64,000 nt of DNA from Klebsiella aerogenes KCTC 2190 (GTDB lineage: Bacteria; Pseudomonadota; Gammaproteobacteria; Enterobacterales; Enterobacteriaceae): contig NC_015663.1 of NCBI RefSeq assembly GCF_000215745.1, positions 3,038,001 through 3,102,000 of the forward strand. Direction: 5' to 3'. Of this stretch, positions 45,250 to 51,666 are shown piece after piece. Each line of letters opens with the position of its first letter. The stretch's first letter is position 1. Under the pieces are notes generated by a model. It saw only the letters and a program-made list of their open reading frames with translations, was not told where the DNA came from and did no database searches. The position numbers were made by a program, and so were the translations under genes.

Positions 45250-45531
45250 TTAAATATCATCCATCGTATAGCCGACGACAATTTCCAGCGTCTTGCGAAT
45301 CACATCCGCGGTAACCACGTTATCGGTGGTTTCCAGCGCATTGATCAACCATAAAATAAGCGCCTTATTGCTCAGATGTCCATCTGAGCTGAGGATACTG
45401 TCGATTGCCAGCGACATTACCGCAGATTCATCGACTAATTTATCTCCGGCGCTGCGGAAATATTCTGAGAGCGCTGTATCCTGCAGTCCTGCGTAAATAT
45501 CTGATTGCTGATGCATAGTCTGTCTCATCAT
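45250..45531 (-). CDS. ariR: AriR (YmgB)-like biofilm/acid-resistance small protein
   Basis: Encodes up to 93 residues. It aligns with E. coli AriR across its whole length (ALSEYFRSAGDKLVDESAV, NKALILWLINALETT, ADVIRKTLEIV). AriR is a small, mostly helical dimer that affects biofilm and acid resistance and acts as a connector on the Rcs phosphorelay. Three Met codons stand near the start (45531, 45528, 45516), so the N-terminus is uncertain. Last gene of ycgZ-ymgA-ariR, in the same order as E. coli. Confidence 0.9.
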   Translation of the reverse strand: MMRQTMHQQSDIYAGLQDTALSEYFRSAGDKLVDESAVMSLAIDSILSSDGHLSNKALILWLINALETTDNVVTADVIRKTLEIVVGYTMDDI

Positions 45532-45563: not shown

Positions 45564-45866
45564 TCAGTGTATTTTTTTGCCCGTCGGTTCGACGTTACTA
45601 TCCACAACAACGGCTCTGTTTTCCCACTGGCCGTTAATCTTTTTAATGACCGGCGCGTGATTACCGCGCGTCGTGAGTCTGACGCTAATTTCATCGATAA
45701 CGGCAATAATTGCATTCCTTCGCTGGCGGTTCGTTTCCGCTGCCTGCATTAACCGAAGTTTGACTAGCAGCGTCGGAATATTAATTGGCCGGTTTGTTTT
45801 AAGAAGAGATAAAACTGCCTCGCCAATAATCTCATCGCTAACCCGATCTGATTGACTGCTTTTCAT
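45564..45866 (-). CDS. ymgA: YmgA-like small connector protein
   Basis: Encodes 100 residues. The N-terminal SDEIIGEAVLSLLKTNRPINIPTLLVKL matches E. coli YmgA, and KKINGQWENR with the C-terminal KKIH fits too. In E. coli YmgA and YmgB act through RcsC to induce colanic acid and biofilm matrix genes. Two tandem ATGs (45869, 45866) lie after GAGGGAC; the second gives the E. coli-like start MKSS. It lies between ycgZ and ariR in one transcription unit. Confidence 0.87.
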   Translation of the reverse strand: MKSSQSDRVSDEIIGEAVLSLLKTNRPINIPTLLVKLRLMQAAETNRQRRNAIIAVIDEISVRLTTRGNHAPVIKKINGQWENRAVVVDSNVEPTGKKIH

Positions 45867-45931
45867 CATCGTCCCTCTGCATGCCAGGTTGTTCCTGTAG
45901 GCCCGGTCAGGTGCAGGCCGACAGTCAGCGT

Positions 45932-46177
45932 TTACTCCTGACGCTCAAACAGCAGGCCAATCAACGTTTGATAATGATTTTCTTCTTCCGGGGCTCGTGC
46001 GACGTCAAGACGGCTCAGTAACTTGGTGCAAAGCGCTTTGCGGTTTAAATGCCGCCCTTCGGTGAGAATGTCCATCACGATTTCGCCCAGCGTCTCCTGC
46101 TGAGAAGGTAACGATGCTTTGTTGAAATACTGGGCTATCGCGTTCGCTGTATCTGGAATGTAACCATTCTGCTGCAT
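45932..46177 (-). CDS. ycgZ: YcgZ-like small connector protein
   Basis: Encodes 81 residues from the ATG at 46177, preceded by AAAGGAGCGCAT. ANAIAQYFNKASLPSQQETLGEIVMDIL aligns with E. coli YcgZ, as does HYQTLIGLLFE at the end. It is the first gene of the unit that BluR represses and blue light with BluF de-represses in E. coli. An in-frame start at 46201 would add eight residues without a good ribosome site. The product may tune Rcs signalling in the cold. Confidence 0.9.
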   Translation of the reverse strand: MQQNGYIPDTANAIAQYFNKASLPSQQETLGEIVMDILTEGRHLNRKALCTKLLSRLDVARAPEEENHYQTLIGLLFERQE

Positions 46178-46486
46178 ATGCGCTCCTTTAATTTCACTCA
46201 TCTGTTAACTGTGAGTAAACTTATACAATAATTTGTAACTTGTACATAGCGTATTGCGCAATAAATCGTGTCTGGAGTATATTTGATTGAAAATTATTGA
46301 TAAATTTGTTGTTTTTTTATTTTGTGTAAAATTGCAATGAGGGTTTTAAGCGTGACGGATTGTACAAGATTGTGCGGCCTGGCGGCGTTGTGTGTTCAAA
46401 TTTTGTTAATATAAATACTTGTTTCGCAAGACGTATCGAACAGTAACTGCTACTGTGAATGCTTATACCTCTCATCTGGAACCGCT
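46178..46486. promoter_or_regulatory. ycgZ-bluF divergent region with TTGTACA motifs
   Basis: 309 bp, very AT-rich, holding both divergent promoters. Two candidate BluR/MlrA-type half sites are seen: TTGTACA at 46240-46246, with TATACAA 11 nt before it, and TTGTACAA at 46360-46367. In E. coli BluR represses ycgZ from this intergenic region. Confidence 0.65.
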
Positions 46487-47698
46487 ATGCTCACCACCAT
46501 CATTTATCGCAGCCATATCTGCGACGATGTCTCATTCAAATCGCTCGAGTCGATGGTTGCTGCGGCTAACGAGAGAAATGGTCAGGCGGATGTCACCGGT
46601 ATTTTACTTTTTAACGGTACGCATTTTTTCCAACTCATTGAAGGACCGGAAGAAAACGTACAGCAAATCTATCGACATATTTGCGCCGACCCGCGTCATT
46701 ACAATCTGGTGGAGCTTCTGTGCGATTACGCGCCGGCTCGCCGCTTTGGTAAGGTCGGCATGGAGCTGTTTGATTTAAGGGAACACGATCGCGACGCGGT
46801 ACTACAGAACGTGCTGGATAAGGGGACGACAAAATATCAGCTGACTTACGACGACCGGGCGCTGCATTTTTTCCGTACCTTTGTCGAAGCGACGGAAAAA
46901 GAGAACTATTATGAAATTCCGTCAGCTGATAGCTGGGATTTTACTGCTGATGAGAGCTCGTTTTATCCGGCCGTACCCTGTATCGACGGCGCTGAATCAT
47001 GCTGTTTTGCTTTTCAGCCGGTGGTTGACCCCTTTGCCTGCGAAATAATCTCCTGGGAAGCGCTGCTGCGTACCGTTGACGGAGAACCGCCCGCAGCCTA
47101 TTTTGCCGGTTTGTCAGGCGATGAGATTTACGTCGCGGATCTGCAAAGTAAACGGGTTGCGCTGGCCATTGCCGGTAAGTTAGGCCTGCGTGAACGTACG
47201 CTGACCATCAATCTACTGCCGATGACGCTGGTGAAAGTGGCGGATGCGGTGCCATTCCTGCTAACGGAAATTCAGCGCAACGATTTGATTCCGGAACAAA
47301 TTATTGTTGAATTCACCGAGCGTGAAGTGATTTCGCGAATGGATGAGTTTACCGATGCCGTACGCAAATTGAAGGGGGCGGGAATACGCGTCGCTATCGA
47401 TCACTTTGGCGCCGGTTTTGCCGGGCTATCGCTGCTGGCGCAATATCAACCGGATCGAATTAAAATTGACCAACAGCTGATCCGCAACATCCATCGTGAC
47501 GGGCCGCGTCAGGCTATCGTGCAGGCGATTATTAAATGCTGCCACTCGCTGGAAATTGCCGTATCGGTGGTTGGCGTTGAGCAGGCGGAGGAGTGGATGT
47601 GGCTGGAGGCGGCGGGTATTTCTCATTTCCAGGGAAATCTGTTTGCCAGCCCGCGACTGGGTGGTCTGCCGGCTATCGCCTGGCCGGGGAAAATATGA
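46487..47698 (+). CDS. bluF: BluF, blue-light (BLUF-EAL) anti-repressor
   Basis: Encodes 403 residues, as in E. coli BluF. The BLUF domain (1-93) has Tyr7 (IIYRS), Asn31 and Gln49 (FFQLIEG), the residues that bind flavin and sense light. The EAL domain (about 155-400) keeps the EAL triplet (SWEALLRT), INLLP and VEFTE, but the DDFG motif is DHFGAGFAG and the catalytic Glu of EGVE is Val, so c-di-GMP hydrolysis is unlikely. It is expected to bind BluR and release it from DNA on blue light at low temperature. Confidence 0.95.
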   Translation: MLTTIIYRSHICDDVSFKSLESMVAAANERNGQADVTGILLFNGTHFFQLIEGPEENVQQIYRHICADPRHYNLVELLCDYAPARRFGKVGMELFDLREHDRDAVLQNVLDKGTTKYQLTYDDRALHFFRTFVEATEKENYYEIPSADSWDFTADESSFYPAVPCIDGAESCCFAFQPVVDPFACEIISWEALLRTVDGEPPAAYFAGLSGDEIYVADLQSKRVALAIAGKLGLRERTLTINLLPMTLVKVADAVPFLLTEIQRNDLIPEQIIVEFTEREVISRMDEFTDAVRKLKGAGIRVAIDHFGAGFAGLSLLAQYQPDRIKIDQQLIRNIHRDGPRQAIVQAIIKCCHSLEIAVSVVGVEQAEEWMWLEAAGISHFQGNLFASPRLGGLPAIAWPGKI

Positions 47699-47854
47699 TC
47701 CCTCCTGGGATAGCGTAAACATACTTTCATCCTTTTTCCCGCACGCTGTGAGCTGCAACCTGATATCTTTATCTGTACAAGAAAAGAGAGTTGTACAGTA
47801 TGCCTAAATTCGTTAGTTTAGGCGCTAAAGTATCAGGTTGAGATAAGGCGGCTT
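47699..47854 (+). promoter_or_regulatory. bluR promoter region with paired TTGTACA motifs
   Basis: TGTACAA at 47774-47780 and TTGTACA at 47791-47797, ten nt apart, form an inverted pair before bluR. This would suit autoregulation by BluR, a MerR-type dimer. A separate short inverted repeat (CCTAAA/TTTAGG) follows at 47803-47822. Confidence 0.6.
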
Positions 47855-48589
47855 ATGGCTTTTTACAGTATCGGTGAAGTAGCCGAGCGTTGCGGAATCA
47901 ATCCGGTCACCCTTCGAGCCTGGCAGCGGCGTTACGGTTTGCTGAAACCGCAGCGTAGCGAAGGCGGGCACCGTCAGTTTGATGAAGAAGATATTCAGCG
48001 AATCGAAGAAATTAAGCGCTGGATAGAACGTGGCGTTTCAGTGGGCAAGGTTAAAGCGCTGCTGGAAGGCCAGCTACCTGCCGCCCGTGACGAATCCGCA
48101 CAGTTGCAGGAAGAGATGATGAGTATCCTGCGCTATATGCAGCCGGCAAAAATCCGCGCCAAAATCACCGCATTAAGCCATCAGCATCCCGTCGACACCC
48201 TGCTTGATAGCCTGTTCGCGCCGGTGCGCCAGCGGCTGAAGCTCGATCAAAACACTTCAATGGTCATCAGCAGCATGTTGGATGGCATATTGATTGATTG
48301 CGTGGCGCTGTTTTTAGCGGAATCGCGTAAAAAAAATGGCAAGGAGACGCTGCTGGTGGGGTGGGGGAATGAAGACCGCACCGGCCTATGGCTGGAAGCC
48401 TGGCGTCTTTCGCAACGCGGTTGGCATGTTAACGTGCTGGCGGAACCGTTAGAATCTCCCCGCCCGGAGCTGTTTCCTGGACAACATATTTTCGTCTGGA
48501 CCGGGCGCCCCGCCTCGCCGCTGCAACTGGAGCTGCTGGGCCACTGGCAGGAACAGGGCTTTAGTATTCACTTCCACGGTAACGAATAA
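47855..48589 (+). CDS. bluR: BluR, MerR-like repressor of the ycgZ unit
   Basis: Encodes 244 residues. The N-terminal MerR-type winged HTH is [21 protein letters not shown] with [19 protein letters not shown]; this is the MlrA/BluR subgroup. The C-terminal part (about 90-240) resembles a B12-binding-like fold without a cobalamin motif and is the likely BluF contact. It represses ycgZ-ymgA-ariR in the dark. The gene lies after bluF with its own promoter region, as in E. coli. Confidence 0.95.
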
Positions 48590-48622
48590 AAAAACCTGCC
48601 TTGCAAGTGAGGCAGGTTGCTG
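48590..48622 (-). terminator. Terminator between bluR and the LuxR-type gene
   Basis: AACCTGCC and GGCAGGTT pair around TTGCAAGTGA. On the minus strand a T-run (TTTTTTT) follows, so it ends the LuxR-type gene; for bluR it lacks a T-tail but may still stop transcription. Confidence 0.75.
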
Positions 48623-48642
48623 TTTGCTTACGTCGCGCGTGC

Positions 48643-49197
48643 TCACAGATGGATTTGACTCCAGGACTTAAATGTTTCGCTACGGCTGATATTAAAGAAA
48701 TCGGTCCTGCCGCTGCAGCCCAGTTTTTTTATCAGATTCAAACGGATTTGATAAATTGTCTTAATATGCAAGTTTAGCGAGCGACCAATGCTGGCAATGG
48801 CTTCGCCATTACTGATGAGCTGAATGACCTTCTTTTCTCGCTCGGTAAACTGTATCAGTTCGCCAGGAGAAGTATGCGATTTATAATAACGGGTCGGTTG
48901 ATTGAGAAATGTTTTTAATTCAGCAGGGGTCGATCTGGCGGGAATGCGTAACATTGGCAGTTCGCTAAGGAAATTAAGATCGTTGCCTTCGGTTAATAAA
49001 ATAAAAATCGTTTCCCGACGATTGTATTTGTGTTGCAACACCGAGAAATAGCTATCGCTGGTAAAGAAAACATGCTTTTTGCGAAAGCAACTTTCTGGCA
49101 GCGTGCGCAGAATAAGGCTGATACCACTCATCAGAAAGTGGTTGTCAATCCACAGGTCATAGCGTTCGGAACAAATGTGCGTGTGTTTACTGAACAT
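48643..49197 (-). CDS. LuxR-type helix-turn-helix regulator, unrecognised
   Basis: Encodes 184 residues from the ATG at 49197, which has GTGGAGACCAAA before it; the longer frame to 49290 is rejected. The C-terminal part (about 120-175) is a LuxR/FixJ HTH: FTEREKKVIQLISNGEAIAS followed by IGRSLNLHIKTIYQIRLNLI. The N-terminal part has no visible receiver Asp pattern. In this it resembles RcsA, BglJ, DctR and MatA, which pair with RcsB; I could not match it to one of them. It follows an AriR-like gene by 28 nt, so it may join the same pathway. Interesting but unassigned. Confidence 0.75.
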   Translation of the reverse strand: MFSKHTHICSERYDLWIDNHFLMSGISLILRTLPESCFRKKHVFFTSDSYFSVLQHKYNRRETIFILLTEGNDLNFLSELPMLRIPARSTPAELKTFLNQPTRYYKSHTSPGELIQFTEREKKVIQLISNGEAIASIGRSLNLHIKTIYQIRLNLIKKLGCSGRTDFFNISRSETFKSWSQIHL

Positions 49198-49225
49198 TTT
49201 GGTCTCCACGAAGCGGATGGACGAA

Positions 49226-49438
49226 TTAATGACGAATACCACAGCGCAGAATATCCAGCGCCTGTAAATAGATATCAGCAAGTATTTCATTACTTTCTAT
49301 TTGTAACCGTTGATTAATCTCACTAATTAATTGAAGATCGTCAACGGTTTTATTTTCCTGTAATAAGCTATTTTCTATGTTTTTCAGCAATGCGCAGTTA
49401 GCTATAAACTGCACAGGGATCGTATTTTTGATATGCAT
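49226..49438 (-). CDS. Small AriR-family-like protein
   Basis: Encodes 70 residues from MHIKNTIPVQFIANC. Residues 47-61 (SNEILADIYLQALDI) line up with the AriR C-terminal helix (ADVIRKTLEI), and the rest is similarly helical, so I place it in the YmgB/AriR/YmgC group with moderate trust. The start at 49438 has GGGAGATTCAGG before it; the frame continues to 49492. It precedes the LuxR-type gene in one unit. E. coli has a fourth gene, ymgC, in its ycgZ operon; this could be a relocated relative. Confidence 0.55.
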   Translation of the reverse strand: MHIKNTIPVQFIANCALLKNIENSLLQENKTVDDLQLISEINQRLQIESNEILADIYLQALDILRCGIRH

Positions 49439-49492
49439 AAGCCTGAATCTCCCACGCGATAAATAAAAGCCGCTGGCGTAAACGATTTGCAC

Positions 49493-49829
49493 ATCGTTTA
49501 CGCCAAAACATTGCGGACAGGCAACGGTAAAACAGGAACCACCTCAAAATAACCGCGGCGTTGGCGCAGAGTGCTGACCCGAGCGCGCGCGTAAAATCGA
49601 GCTACCCGTCAACTATAGACGCTCAGAGGAAAGTTGTACAAATTTCTGCGAAATAATTTGTACACATTAGCGATGTGTTAATGTGATTTTGTTTATGTCT
49701 TTGATTTTTTGTGGTTTTTATTTTTGCACTCTTGTACAAGTAAGGCGGTAAATCTCTCCGAAAAACGCAGAATGCGCTTCGCGCAGGGTTATACTTGTCT
49801 GCCGAGAAAGTGAAAAAGAAGGGAATGCG
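49493..49829. promoter_or_regulatory. Intergenic region before the AriR-like gene and blc, with TTGTACA motifs
   Basis: About 340 bp between divergent genes, with an AT-rich core. It holds TTGTACAA at 49634-49641, TTGTACA at 49658-49664 and the palindrome CTTGTACAAG at 49731-49740. The blc ATG (49830) follows GAAGGGAATGCG. No gene is seen here. Confidence 0.6.
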
Positions 49830-50363
49830 ATGAAACTATGGCCAATTTTGACCGGGGTAGCGGTATCGCTGGCGTTGGTCGCCTGTAAAACCCCAACGCC
49901 GCCTCGCGGGGTAAAACCGATAAACCATTTTGACGCCAGCCGTTATCTGGGGCGCTGGTATGAAGTCGCGCGTCTGGAAAACCGTTTTGAACGAGGTCTG
50001 GAGCAGGTGACGGCTACCTACAGTATGCGTGACGACGGCGGCATTCGCGTACTCAACCGAGGATTTGACCCGCGCAACAAACGCTGGCGCGAGAGCGAGG
50101 GCAAAGCCTATTTCACCGGCGCTTCCACCACGGCAGCGCTGAAAGTCTCTTTCTTCGGCCCCTTCTATGGCGGATATAACGTGATCGCGCTCGACGAGGA
50201 TTATCAATACGCGCTGGTGAGCGGTCCAAACCGCGACTATTTATGGCTGCTTTCGCGCACCCCGGATATTCCGTCCCACATTCGACAGCAGTACCTTGCC
50301 CTGGCCGCTGAGCTCGGTTTTGCGGTTAACAAACTGGTGTGGGTGCCGCAGGCGAAGGCTTAA
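49830..50363 (+). CDS. blc: Outer membrane lipoprotein Blc (bacterial lipocalin)
   Basis: Encodes 177 residues. The signal peptide ends in a lipobox (LALVACKT), giving an outer-membrane lipoprotein. Lipocalin signature GRWYEVARLENRFERGL is followed by LNRGFDPRNKRWRESEGKA, and the barrel strands end with LVSGPNRDYLWLLSRTP. It binds lysophospholipids and is induced in stationary phase in E. coli. Here it lies outside its usual E. coli location near ampC. The stop overlaps the anti-sigma gene tail by 4 nt. Confidence 0.95.
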   Translation: MKLWPILTGVAVSLALVACKTPTPPRGVKPINHFDASRYLGRWYEVARLENRFERGLEQVTATYSMRDDGGIRVLNRGFDPRNKRWRESEGKAYFTGASTTAALKVSFFGPFYGGYNVIALDEDYQYALVSGPNRDYLWLLSRTPDIPSHIRQQYLALAAELGFAVNKLVWVPQAKA

Positions 50364-51154
50364 ACTATCGCTTGCCGCAGGGTGTGCGCCGCATCGTTGA
50401 GCACGGGCGCCGGCATACGGCCGATCAGCGCAAACTGGTAGCCGCCGTGGCGCCACCAGCGCAGGTTCATGCCCTGACGCTGCTCATTTTGCGGCGGTGA
50501 GGCGGATTGCCGGGCGGCGGGTGAAATACAAAGCGCGACCGGGCCGTAACCGGTATGCAGCCAGAGGATTTGCGTGATCGAGGTACTTTCGTAGCGCAGC
50601 ATACGGACCATTTTCAGCTCCGCCTCAGGCAAGGCGAGCTGGCGTCGTTCTAGCAACAGTCCTGTATCCTGCGCCGAACGACGCAGGCCACGGTCGAGCA
50701 TCGCGGGTGAATTATCAACATCGGCCACGGTTTCCGCGCTATATAGCGACATGTACTGGGCTTCAAGACGGCGAATATTCTCGTCATCGTCTTCCTGCGG
50801 CTCAGGCCGCCAGAAATAACTTGCTGCGCTACCGATAACCAACAGGCCCAATGAGGCGGCAATCAGCGCGCGACGGCTGAAGCGCGCCTGATTTTGCGCT
50901 TTACTTTTCGGCCCGGTGAGGTAGGGCGCCAGTTTCGCCTGCATCCGCGCCACGGGCGCTTCATCAATCAGGGCGGCGAAAGCATGTTGATAAGGCTGAT
51001 GATTATTCATTAACCTGGCGGTGCGGCTGGCGAGCTGCGGGTCGCGGGCAAAGGTTTCGCTAAAACGGCGGGCGTCCTCCGCGCACATTTCGCCATCAAG
51101 CCAGGCGACAATGGCCTCGTCCTGCCAGGGTGGGGAAAAGCGAATAGGGTTCAT
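50360..51154 (-). CDS. Putative transmembrane anti-sigma factor
   Basis: Encodes 264 residues. An N-terminal helical region (about 10-75, DEAIVAWLDGEMCAEDARRF) resembles anti-sigma domains, a single membrane segment lies at about 96-114 (ALIAASLGLLVIGSAASYF), and the rest would be periplasmic. The zinc-binding HxxxCxxC of ZAS proteins is not complete. The start overlaps the ECF sigma gene by 4 nt (ATGA), which strongly supports the pairing. The signal it senses is unknown. Confidence 0.75.
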   Translation of the reverse strand: MNPIRFSPPWQDEAIVAWLDGEMCAEDARRFSETFARDPQLASRTARLMNNHQPYQHAFAALIDEAPVARMQAKLAPYLTGPKSKAQNQARFSRRALIAASLGLLVIGSAASYFWRPEPQEDDDENIRRLEAQYMSLYSAETVADVDNSPAMLDRGLRRSAQDTGLLLERRQLALPEAELKMVRMLRYESTSITQILWLHTGYGPVALCISPAARQSASPPQNEQRQGMNLRWWRHGGYQFALIGRMPAPVLNDAAHTLRQAIV

Positions 51155-51666
51155 GAGCGTTTCTCCTGCGCCGGGGGCGAAATCGCCGGCGTTTTGGCCA
51201 GTGTTTCCCGCGCGGCGGCCAGCCGACTCATAATGGTGCCAATAGGTACCGATAGCGTCTCGGCGGCTTCCTGATAACTAAACCCCTCGACATACACCAA
51301 AAAGACGGCATTACGCTGCGCCTCGGGCAGTTGATTAACCCGCAGCATAAGTTGCCGATAGCGCCACCGCGTATCGTCCTGTTCGCCCGGCTCGGGGGCG
51401 GCCAGCTCCTCACACTCGACAAACCCCTGGCCGAGGCGAACCTGGCGGGCGCGCAGCTCTGAAATCCAGATTGAGTGCAAAATGGCGAATAGCCACCTGT
51501 CGATGCGGGTGCCGGGGGTAAACTGCGCGCTCTTTTCGAGCGCGCGAAGGCAGGTGGCCTGCACCAGCTCCTCGGCGACGTCGCGGTTGTGCGAGAGTAC
51601 GAGGCCGTAGCGCCACAGGCGAGAAAGATGGGCGGCAAGTTGGCTATCAACGATACGGTTAGCGAT
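51151..51666 (-). CDS. ECF-type RNA polymerase sigma factor (unusual start)
   Basis: Region 2 is clear (LWRYGLVLSHNRDVAEELVQ, then RIDRWLFAILHSIWISELRAR), as is region 4 (LPEAQRNAVFLVYVEGFSYQ, then LSVPIGTIMSRLAAARETL). The first ATG, GTG or TTG in frame is the GTG at 51564, which would cut off about half of region 2. Homology runs back to an in-frame TGA at 51694, with no normal start. An ATC at 51664-51666 lies 7 nt after AAGGA and is my candidate, giving about 171 residues. Anti-sigma gene overlaps at its end. Confidence 0.7.
   Translation of the reverse strand: MANRIVDSQLAAHLSRLWRYGLVLSHNRDVAEELVQATCLRALEKSAQFTPGTRIDRWLFAILHSIWISELRARQVRLGQGFVECEELAAPEPGEQDDTRWRYRQLMLRVNQLPEAQRNAVFLVYVEGFSYQEAAETLSVPIGTIMSRLAAARETLAKTPAISPPAQEKRS

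Follow-up and report, generated by a model that had tools for sequence, protein, structure and literature searches.

Paired TGTACA half-sites suggest that BluR may act on its own gene and on a bdm-like/luxR operon in Klebsiella

In passages of the report describing the Escherichia coli pathway, BluR gives a footprint over GTACA repeats of the ycgZ promoter, and its direct target is ycgZ-ymgABC, with residual binding at csgD, whose MlrA box reads TTGTACA-N12-TGCACAA (PMC3509220). The LitR-type regulators PplR1 and PmlR2 read T(G/A)TACA-N12-TGTA(C/T)A, according to passages of PMC9758184. Here, we analyzed the TTGTACA sites around bluF and bluR of Klebsiella aerogenes KCTC 2190 within a stretch of 64,000 nucleotides (positions 3038001-3102000 of a genome that forms one contig of 5,280,350 bases), hereafter the window. 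With a probability of about 0.75, these sites serve BluR, an MlrA-type repressor, as operators at ycgZ-ymgA-ariR, at bluR, and at a Klebsiella bdm-like/luxR operon, all three being released by blue light and BluF. In the dark, BluR would occupy pairs of TGTACA half-sites overlying promoter elements in the three units, so that it would repress its own gene and, in Klebsiella, also the bdm-like/luxR operon. Under blue light, BluF would pull BluR off and the three units would come on together, a step carried over by analogy from E. coli (PMC3509220, in part).

The locus shares with the E. coli system, as described in passages of PMC3509220, the genes BluF-BluR-ycgZ-ymgABC, the position of an MlrA-type repressor gene beside the gene for a BLUF-EAL protein, and, judged from the DNA alone, GTACA half-sites over the ycgZ promoter. 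The repressor gene adjoins bluF and the ycgZ-ymgAB unit, and its product was rightly called an MlrA relative in the first-pass annotation, as the MerR helix-turn-helix (HTH), MlrA helical, and C-terminal domains all score above cut-off; against the MlrA equivalog model NF011617, it remains below the threshold (259.6 versus 417 bits; NCBIfam). Klebsiella differs from E. coli in adding a second boxed operon, bdm-like/luxR, and its ycgZ box, TGTACA-N13-TGTATA, is without the second TGTACA (N7) of most other genera. With respect to the passages of PMC3509220 at hand, the csgD MlrA box (AAAGTTGTACA-N12-TGCACAATTTT) shares its half-site and its N12 spacing with the bluR box of Klebsiella, whereas MlrA activates csgD and BluR is described as a repressor only. 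Similarly, passages of PMC9758184 describe the LitR/CarH class (Pseudomonas mendocina PmlR2, Pseudomonas putida PplR1) as MerR-type light-response repressors with TGTACA-N12-TGTACA, PmlR2 being likewise relieved by a blue-light photoreceptor; however, the photoreceptor in that case belongs to the LOV proteins, and PmlR2 contains a B12-binding domain, while BluR has MlrA domains.

Within the window, TTGTACA has 11 strand matches (shuffle mean 3.83; 11 reached in 1 of 100 shuffles), 10 of which fall within 46240-49739 and represent seven distinct places (46240, 46360, 47774 on the minus strand, 47791, 49634, 49658, and 49732). The whole genome contains 127 + 115 = 242 strand matches or, with 30 places being the palindromic TTGTACAA, approximately 212 distinct places, and the seven places in 3,563 bases compare with 0.14 expected from this count (Poisson 2e-10). 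For the shorter TGTACA, the three intergenic segments (871 bases) hold seven occurrences versus a mean of 0.23, and none of 20,000 dinucleotide shuffles reached seven. The genome-wide count, proposed as a check in the first-pass annotation, revealed a motif that is not common genome-wide, bearing out the claim that it is rare yet clustered in the promoter regions here. Of the positions given there, six were correct and the blc-side site lies at 49732 instead of 49731; the full 8-mer TTGTACAA is present at three places (46360, 49634, 49732), and elsewhere in the region only the 7-mer TTGTACA is found. The noted resemblance of the core to the MlrA box is sound, since operators of the MlrA/BluR family are of this type (PMC3509220, in part).

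What we observed at the promoters is the geometry of these operators and the conservation of their boxes, which were compared in 20 genomes of the genus and in 47 named bluR loci, 43 of which were used for the ycgZ-bluF space (in L038, L045, L047, and L068, ycgZ or full bluF is not in the locus). BluR orthologues (at least 80% identity) occur in 11 of the 20 genomes, and all 11 have the exact N12 pair before bluR. Among the named loci, TGTACA is found in the 150 bases before bluR in 44/47, with a pair 12-26 bases apart in 30/47 (43/47 counting TATACA/TGTATA), mostly 18-19 apart, as compared to 0-1 of 47 and no pair for seven control hexamers. The E. coli K-12 bluR promoter contains TGTACA-N14-TGTACA, with boxes at -27..-22 and -7..-2 from the published transcription start, which lies 54 bases before the gene if the annotated start codon is taken (PMC3509220, in part). 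These boxes overlie the mapped promoter, and a repressor bound there would block it; the pair is located 58-81 bases before the start codon in the window and 56-81 bases before it in E. coli.

The ycgZ-bluF space shows the same enrichment. TGTACA is present in 43/43 loci and a pair in 35/43, mostly 13 apart, while the seven control hexamers reach 0-6 of 43 and form no pair. The arrangement TGTACA-N12..14-TGTATA was found in 26/43 spaces, including all five named Klebsiella loci, and in the window as well. Furthermore, in 38 of 44 sequences (the 43 loci and the window), a TGTACA is located over 110 bases away from the start of ycgZ.

The luxR gene of the window is carried by 10 of the 20 genomes, and nine of these 10 have the exact TGTACA-N18-TGTACA pair (Table 1). 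A promoter-like element overlaps its proximal half-site; the underlying consensus scan returned 8 promoter-like sites versus 5.2 expected and is hence weak alone, and AACTATAG on the plus strand, which corresponds to the TATAGT of this element, is kept in 10/10 genomes. The distance between the third site and the pair is 74-75 bases in G000, G012, G013, and G019, and 83-84 bases in G003, G007, G009, G010, and G017; in G016, it lies 75 bases from a damaged half-site. The two spacing classes differ by 8-10 bases, approximately one helical turn. The third site is probably auxiliary to the bdm-like/luxR promoter and not an element of blc, and auxiliary operators may be the role of both single distal sites, the one close to ycgZ and the one close to the bdm-like gene. 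All 10 luxR-bearing genomes are among the 11 with BluR, and 9/9 BluR-less genomes are also without luxR. BluR would repress both bluR and luxR. The comparison supports the earlier proposal that BluR controls more than ycgZ for bluR and, in Klebsiella, for the unit of the Bdm-like and LuxR-type proteins, both preceded by conserved boxes, but not for blc.

Several points weigh against this reading. The luxR pair is spaced by N18, whereas the boxes at bluR and ycgZ have N12-N13, and one dimer may therefore not span it; in G016, moreover, its second half-site is TGTACT. G004 has BluR without luxR, and because the two genes are neighbours, their co-occurrence could reflect linkage. Three of the 47 named loci (L041, L043, and L077) are without TGTACA before bluR. 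The window's genome also encodes MlrA, which could share the sites, and a third MlrA-type paralogue, and such a third paralogue is carried by K. pneumoniae-like genomes, too. Lastly, the passages of the E. coli paper do not discuss a box at bluR, and neither autoregul- nor LuxR appears as a word in its text (PMC3509220).

Table 1. Putative operators and genes of the bluF-bluR locus and the box at rcsD. Coordinates are those of the window unless another sequence is named.
Feature	Coordinates	Strand	Basis or remark
ariR/ymgB	45250..45531	-	PF10798 above cut-off
Gene in ymgA position	45564..45869	-	no Pfam or NCBIfam match
ycgZ	45932..46177	-	NCBIfam NF040640 above cut-off
Putative ycgZ operator, TGTACA-N13-TGTATA toward ycgZ	46222..46246	-	45-69 bases upstream of ATG at 46177
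Distal TTGTACAA between ycgZ and bluF	46360..46367	.	120 bases from proximal TGTACA
bluF, BLUF-EAL photoreceptor	46487..47698	+	PF04940, PF00563 above cut-off
Putative bluR operator, TGTACA-N12-TGTACA	47774..47797	+	58-81 bases upstream of bluR ATG
bluR, MerR/MlrA-type regulator	47855..48589	+	MerR_1 PF13411, MlrA_helical PF22270, MlrA_C PF22267 above cut-off
LuxR-type regulator, RcsB-like in C-terminal two thirds	48643..49197	-	PF00196 above cut-off
Bdm-like small protein, first gene of luxR unit	49226..49423	-	weak PF10684 and NF008515, both below cut-off
Promoter-like TGTACA-N17-TATAGT of bdm-like/luxR unit	49612..49640	-	consensus scan
Putative bdm-like/luxR operator, TGTACA-N18-TGTACA	49634..49664	-	pair in 9/10 genomes; proximal half-site on -35-like hexamer
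Third site, TTGTACAA	49732..49739	.	74 bases beyond pair; present in 10/10 luxR-bearing genomes
blc lipocalin, probable bystander	49830..50363	+	NF007786 above cut-off
TGTACA-N13-TGTACA between micF and rcsD	L103:2998-3022 (G000:C1:5155527-5155551); E. coli K-12 L219:3327-3351

The first-pass annotation had also considered BluR control of the lipocalin gene blc, and the third site does lie 91 bases before the blc ATG. We nevertheless rejected control of blc from 49732 and consider it doubtful, as the site is present in all 10 luxR-bearing genomes, and blc lies beside it in the window's genome only; because of this 10/10 versus 1/10 distribution, the site belongs with the luxR promoter region. 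In addition, its spacing from the pair is one of the two classes given above independent of what lies beyond. In six of the 10 genomes, the site is next to ybhC, whose 3' end faces it, and neither blc nor ybhC was found beside the site by tblastn in the three K. pneumoniae-like genomes; in K. pneumoniae L031, the next plus-strand open reading frame (ORF) begins 445 bases from the site, with a minus-strand ORF of 102 residues in between. The luxR loci of the genus reach approximately 1 kb beyond the sites, and more distant copies of blc were sought in the five named Klebsiella loci of 12.7 kb each, where tblastn did not find the gene. In the window, the interval between the Bdm-like gene and ybhC holds blc, a gene that matches neither Pfam nor NCBIfam, and an extracytoplasmic function (ECF) sigma gene (49830-51564). 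The lipocalin gene would be a later arrival beside an existing site, under whose influence it may have come.

A second alternative is that MlrA or the third MlrA-type paralogue, not BluR, reads the sites. The motif alone does not name BluR, because MlrA reads the same hexamer (PMC3509220, in part). The window's genome encodes three proteins with an MlrA_C domain, namely BluR, MlrA (L106), and the third MlrA-type protein (L107, approximately 35% identical to BluR), the last of which corresponds to a paralogue reported to be 44% identical to E. coli MlrA in a passage of PMC3509220; moreover, a similar box at rcsD is exact in all nine BluR-less genomes. On the other hand, when Klebsiella spallanzanii (G017, whose coordinates equal those of G021/L032 and show them to be one genome) is searched with BluR and MlrA at E 1e-20, BluR is the single MlrA-type protein retrieved, yet its box at ycgZ, its pairs at bluR and luxR, and its third site are all kept, which makes BluR the likely reader. 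Likewise, the three K. pneumoniae-like genomes without an MlrA orthologue, in which the third paralogue is present, keep the bluR and luxR boxes as well as the third site and have no rcsD box. In the paralogue loci themselves, TGTACA is absent from L106 and occurs once in L107, inside an ORF. Reading of the sites by MlrA or the third paralogue appears unlikely.

It is very unlikely that the LuxR-type protein itself binds TTGTACA: its promoter carries the motif, but 34 of the 47 named loci are without a luxR homologue in the locus, and nearly all of them keep the motif before bluR and ycgZ. A chance cluster in AT-rich intergenic DNA, for which nothing speaks except the AT-richness, is refuted by the 20,000 shuffles and by the conservation of half-site spacing across genera and can practically be dismissed.

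If BluR does repress its own gene and a second operon that encodes a DNA-binding protein, what is close to a one-operon switch would become a small regulon, making the effect of blue light in Klebsiella testable. Given its similarity to RcsB, the LuxR-type protein may contribute to the Rcs output, into which YmgB feeds in E. coli. Furthermore, the natural losses of BluR and MlrA within one genus can show how paralogues with one half-site may keep separate targets. As a tentative extension, which we regard as possible rather than probable, BluR would control under blue light the connector proteins, itself, and an RcsB-like partner, and MlrA would control rcsD through a TGTACA-N13-TGTACA conserved between Klebsiella and E. 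coli K-12, the paralogues sharing out the Rcs phosphorelay.

The rcsD box came to attention through close pairs of the type TGTACA-N8..30-TGTACA, which occur at four places in the whole genome, two of them in the region described here; of the remaining two, only the pair flanked by micF and rcsD is outside ORFs. We therefore suspected BluR control of rcsD and dropped it, as the box tracks the paralogue MlrA rather than BluR. When every genome was judged by the same rule (N12-14 spacing, no more than one mismatch across both half-sites, 420 bases upstream), 17 of the 20 genomes of the genus have the box (11 exact, 6 with one mismatch; all N13), comprising 8/11 BluR-bearing and 9/9 BluR-less genomes. 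It is absent in G012, G013, and G019, which are BluR-bearing and without an MlrA orthologue. Adding 27 named genomes (L031 and L032 being dropped as duplicates of G012 and G017, and L070 and 16 further named loci staying outside the set) gave 47 genomes, in which the box is present in 25/34 MlrA-bearing versus 1/13 MlrA-less genomes (Fisher 6e-5, kinship ignored). MlrA was called within the genus by 45-49% identity to BluR and in the named set by at least 60% identity to the MlrA of the window's genome, one of the latter calls (G038) covering residues 1-151 only. Three of the 13 MlrA-less genomes (G034, G039, and G048) carry another paralogue with 46-47% identity to MlrA, which might be MlrA in diverged form; moving these genomes to the MlrA-bearing group changes the counts to 25/37 versus 1/10 (0.003, kinship again ignored), and a narrower rule for the named set finds the box in 24/34 MlrA-bearing genomes. 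The seven control hexamers gave 2 hits in 329 genome tests at rcsD. Against MlrA as reader of this box, it is missing in half of the 18 named MlrA-bearing genomes, and K. spallanzanii, without MlrA, retains it with one mismatch. No report of MlrA or BluR at rcsD was found in titles and displayed abstracts among the papers listed, a search that mostly did not extend to subscription journals.

Across the 20 genomes of the genus, close pairs amount to 56 places (7 for the control pattern), of which 11 are at bluR, 9 at luxR, 11 at rcsD, and 25 elsewhere, with six of these 25 being one repeat in G013. In the genome of K. aerogenes, 27 TTGTACAA places lie outside the window, 21 inside an ORF and 6 between ORFs (by a greedy ORF rule only), and among the genes near them, only rcsD was identified. 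A further pair, TGTACACCAGGCCTTTTTT(A/G)TACA on either strand, was seen at G000:C1:2985689-2985712 and also in G002 and G012, one of these three genomes being BluR-less.

The genes of the locus are arranged as ariR, the gene in ymgA position, and ycgZ (minus strand), bluF and bluR (plus), the LuxR-type and the Bdm-like gene (minus), and blc (plus). The ycgZ ORF opens at 46201; however, the ATG at 46177 is preceded by AAAGGAG, and the NCBIfam model aligns from residue 1. The first gene of the luxR unit, initially described as AriR-like, has no AriR/YmgB match and instead a weak Bdm match below cut-off (20.2 bits versus the Pfam gathering score of 32.9). A profile of the LuxR-type family matched best to the HTH of EsrB (2e-7) and to full RcsB chains over positions 43-174 (5.5e-6). 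The HTH aligns with those of RcsB and NarL-type regulators (EsrB, BglJ, EvgA, CsgD) and part of the receiver region with that of RcsB, but the LuxR-type protein differs from them in a short N-terminal part and reaches no equivalog model cut-off (RcsB model, 15.7 versus 235 bits).

Eight of the 47 named loci (L039, L040, L044, L046, L049, L057, L071, and L072) have a LuxR-type homologue directly after ariR on the same strand and hence behind the ycgZ operator. These homologues come from Pseudocitrobacter, Kluyvera, and others outside Klebsiella, are alignable over the full length, and are 29-38% identical to the window protein (27 invariant columns over 17 sequences). The LuxR-type regulator is thus linked with BluR-type boxes in two ways, through a boxed promoter of its own or through a place behind the ycgZ operator. 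Indole upregulates ycgZ, ymgA, and the LuxR gene KPHS_16110, possibly this luxR, in K. pneumoniae (PMC11830697, in part). The leader of the Bdm-like/luxR unit, for which Rfam gave no match to a known RNA, contains a terminator-like hairpin of 14 pairs (49473-49506, minus strand), and the leaders of three other Klebsiella loci likewise fold into hairpins of different sequence.

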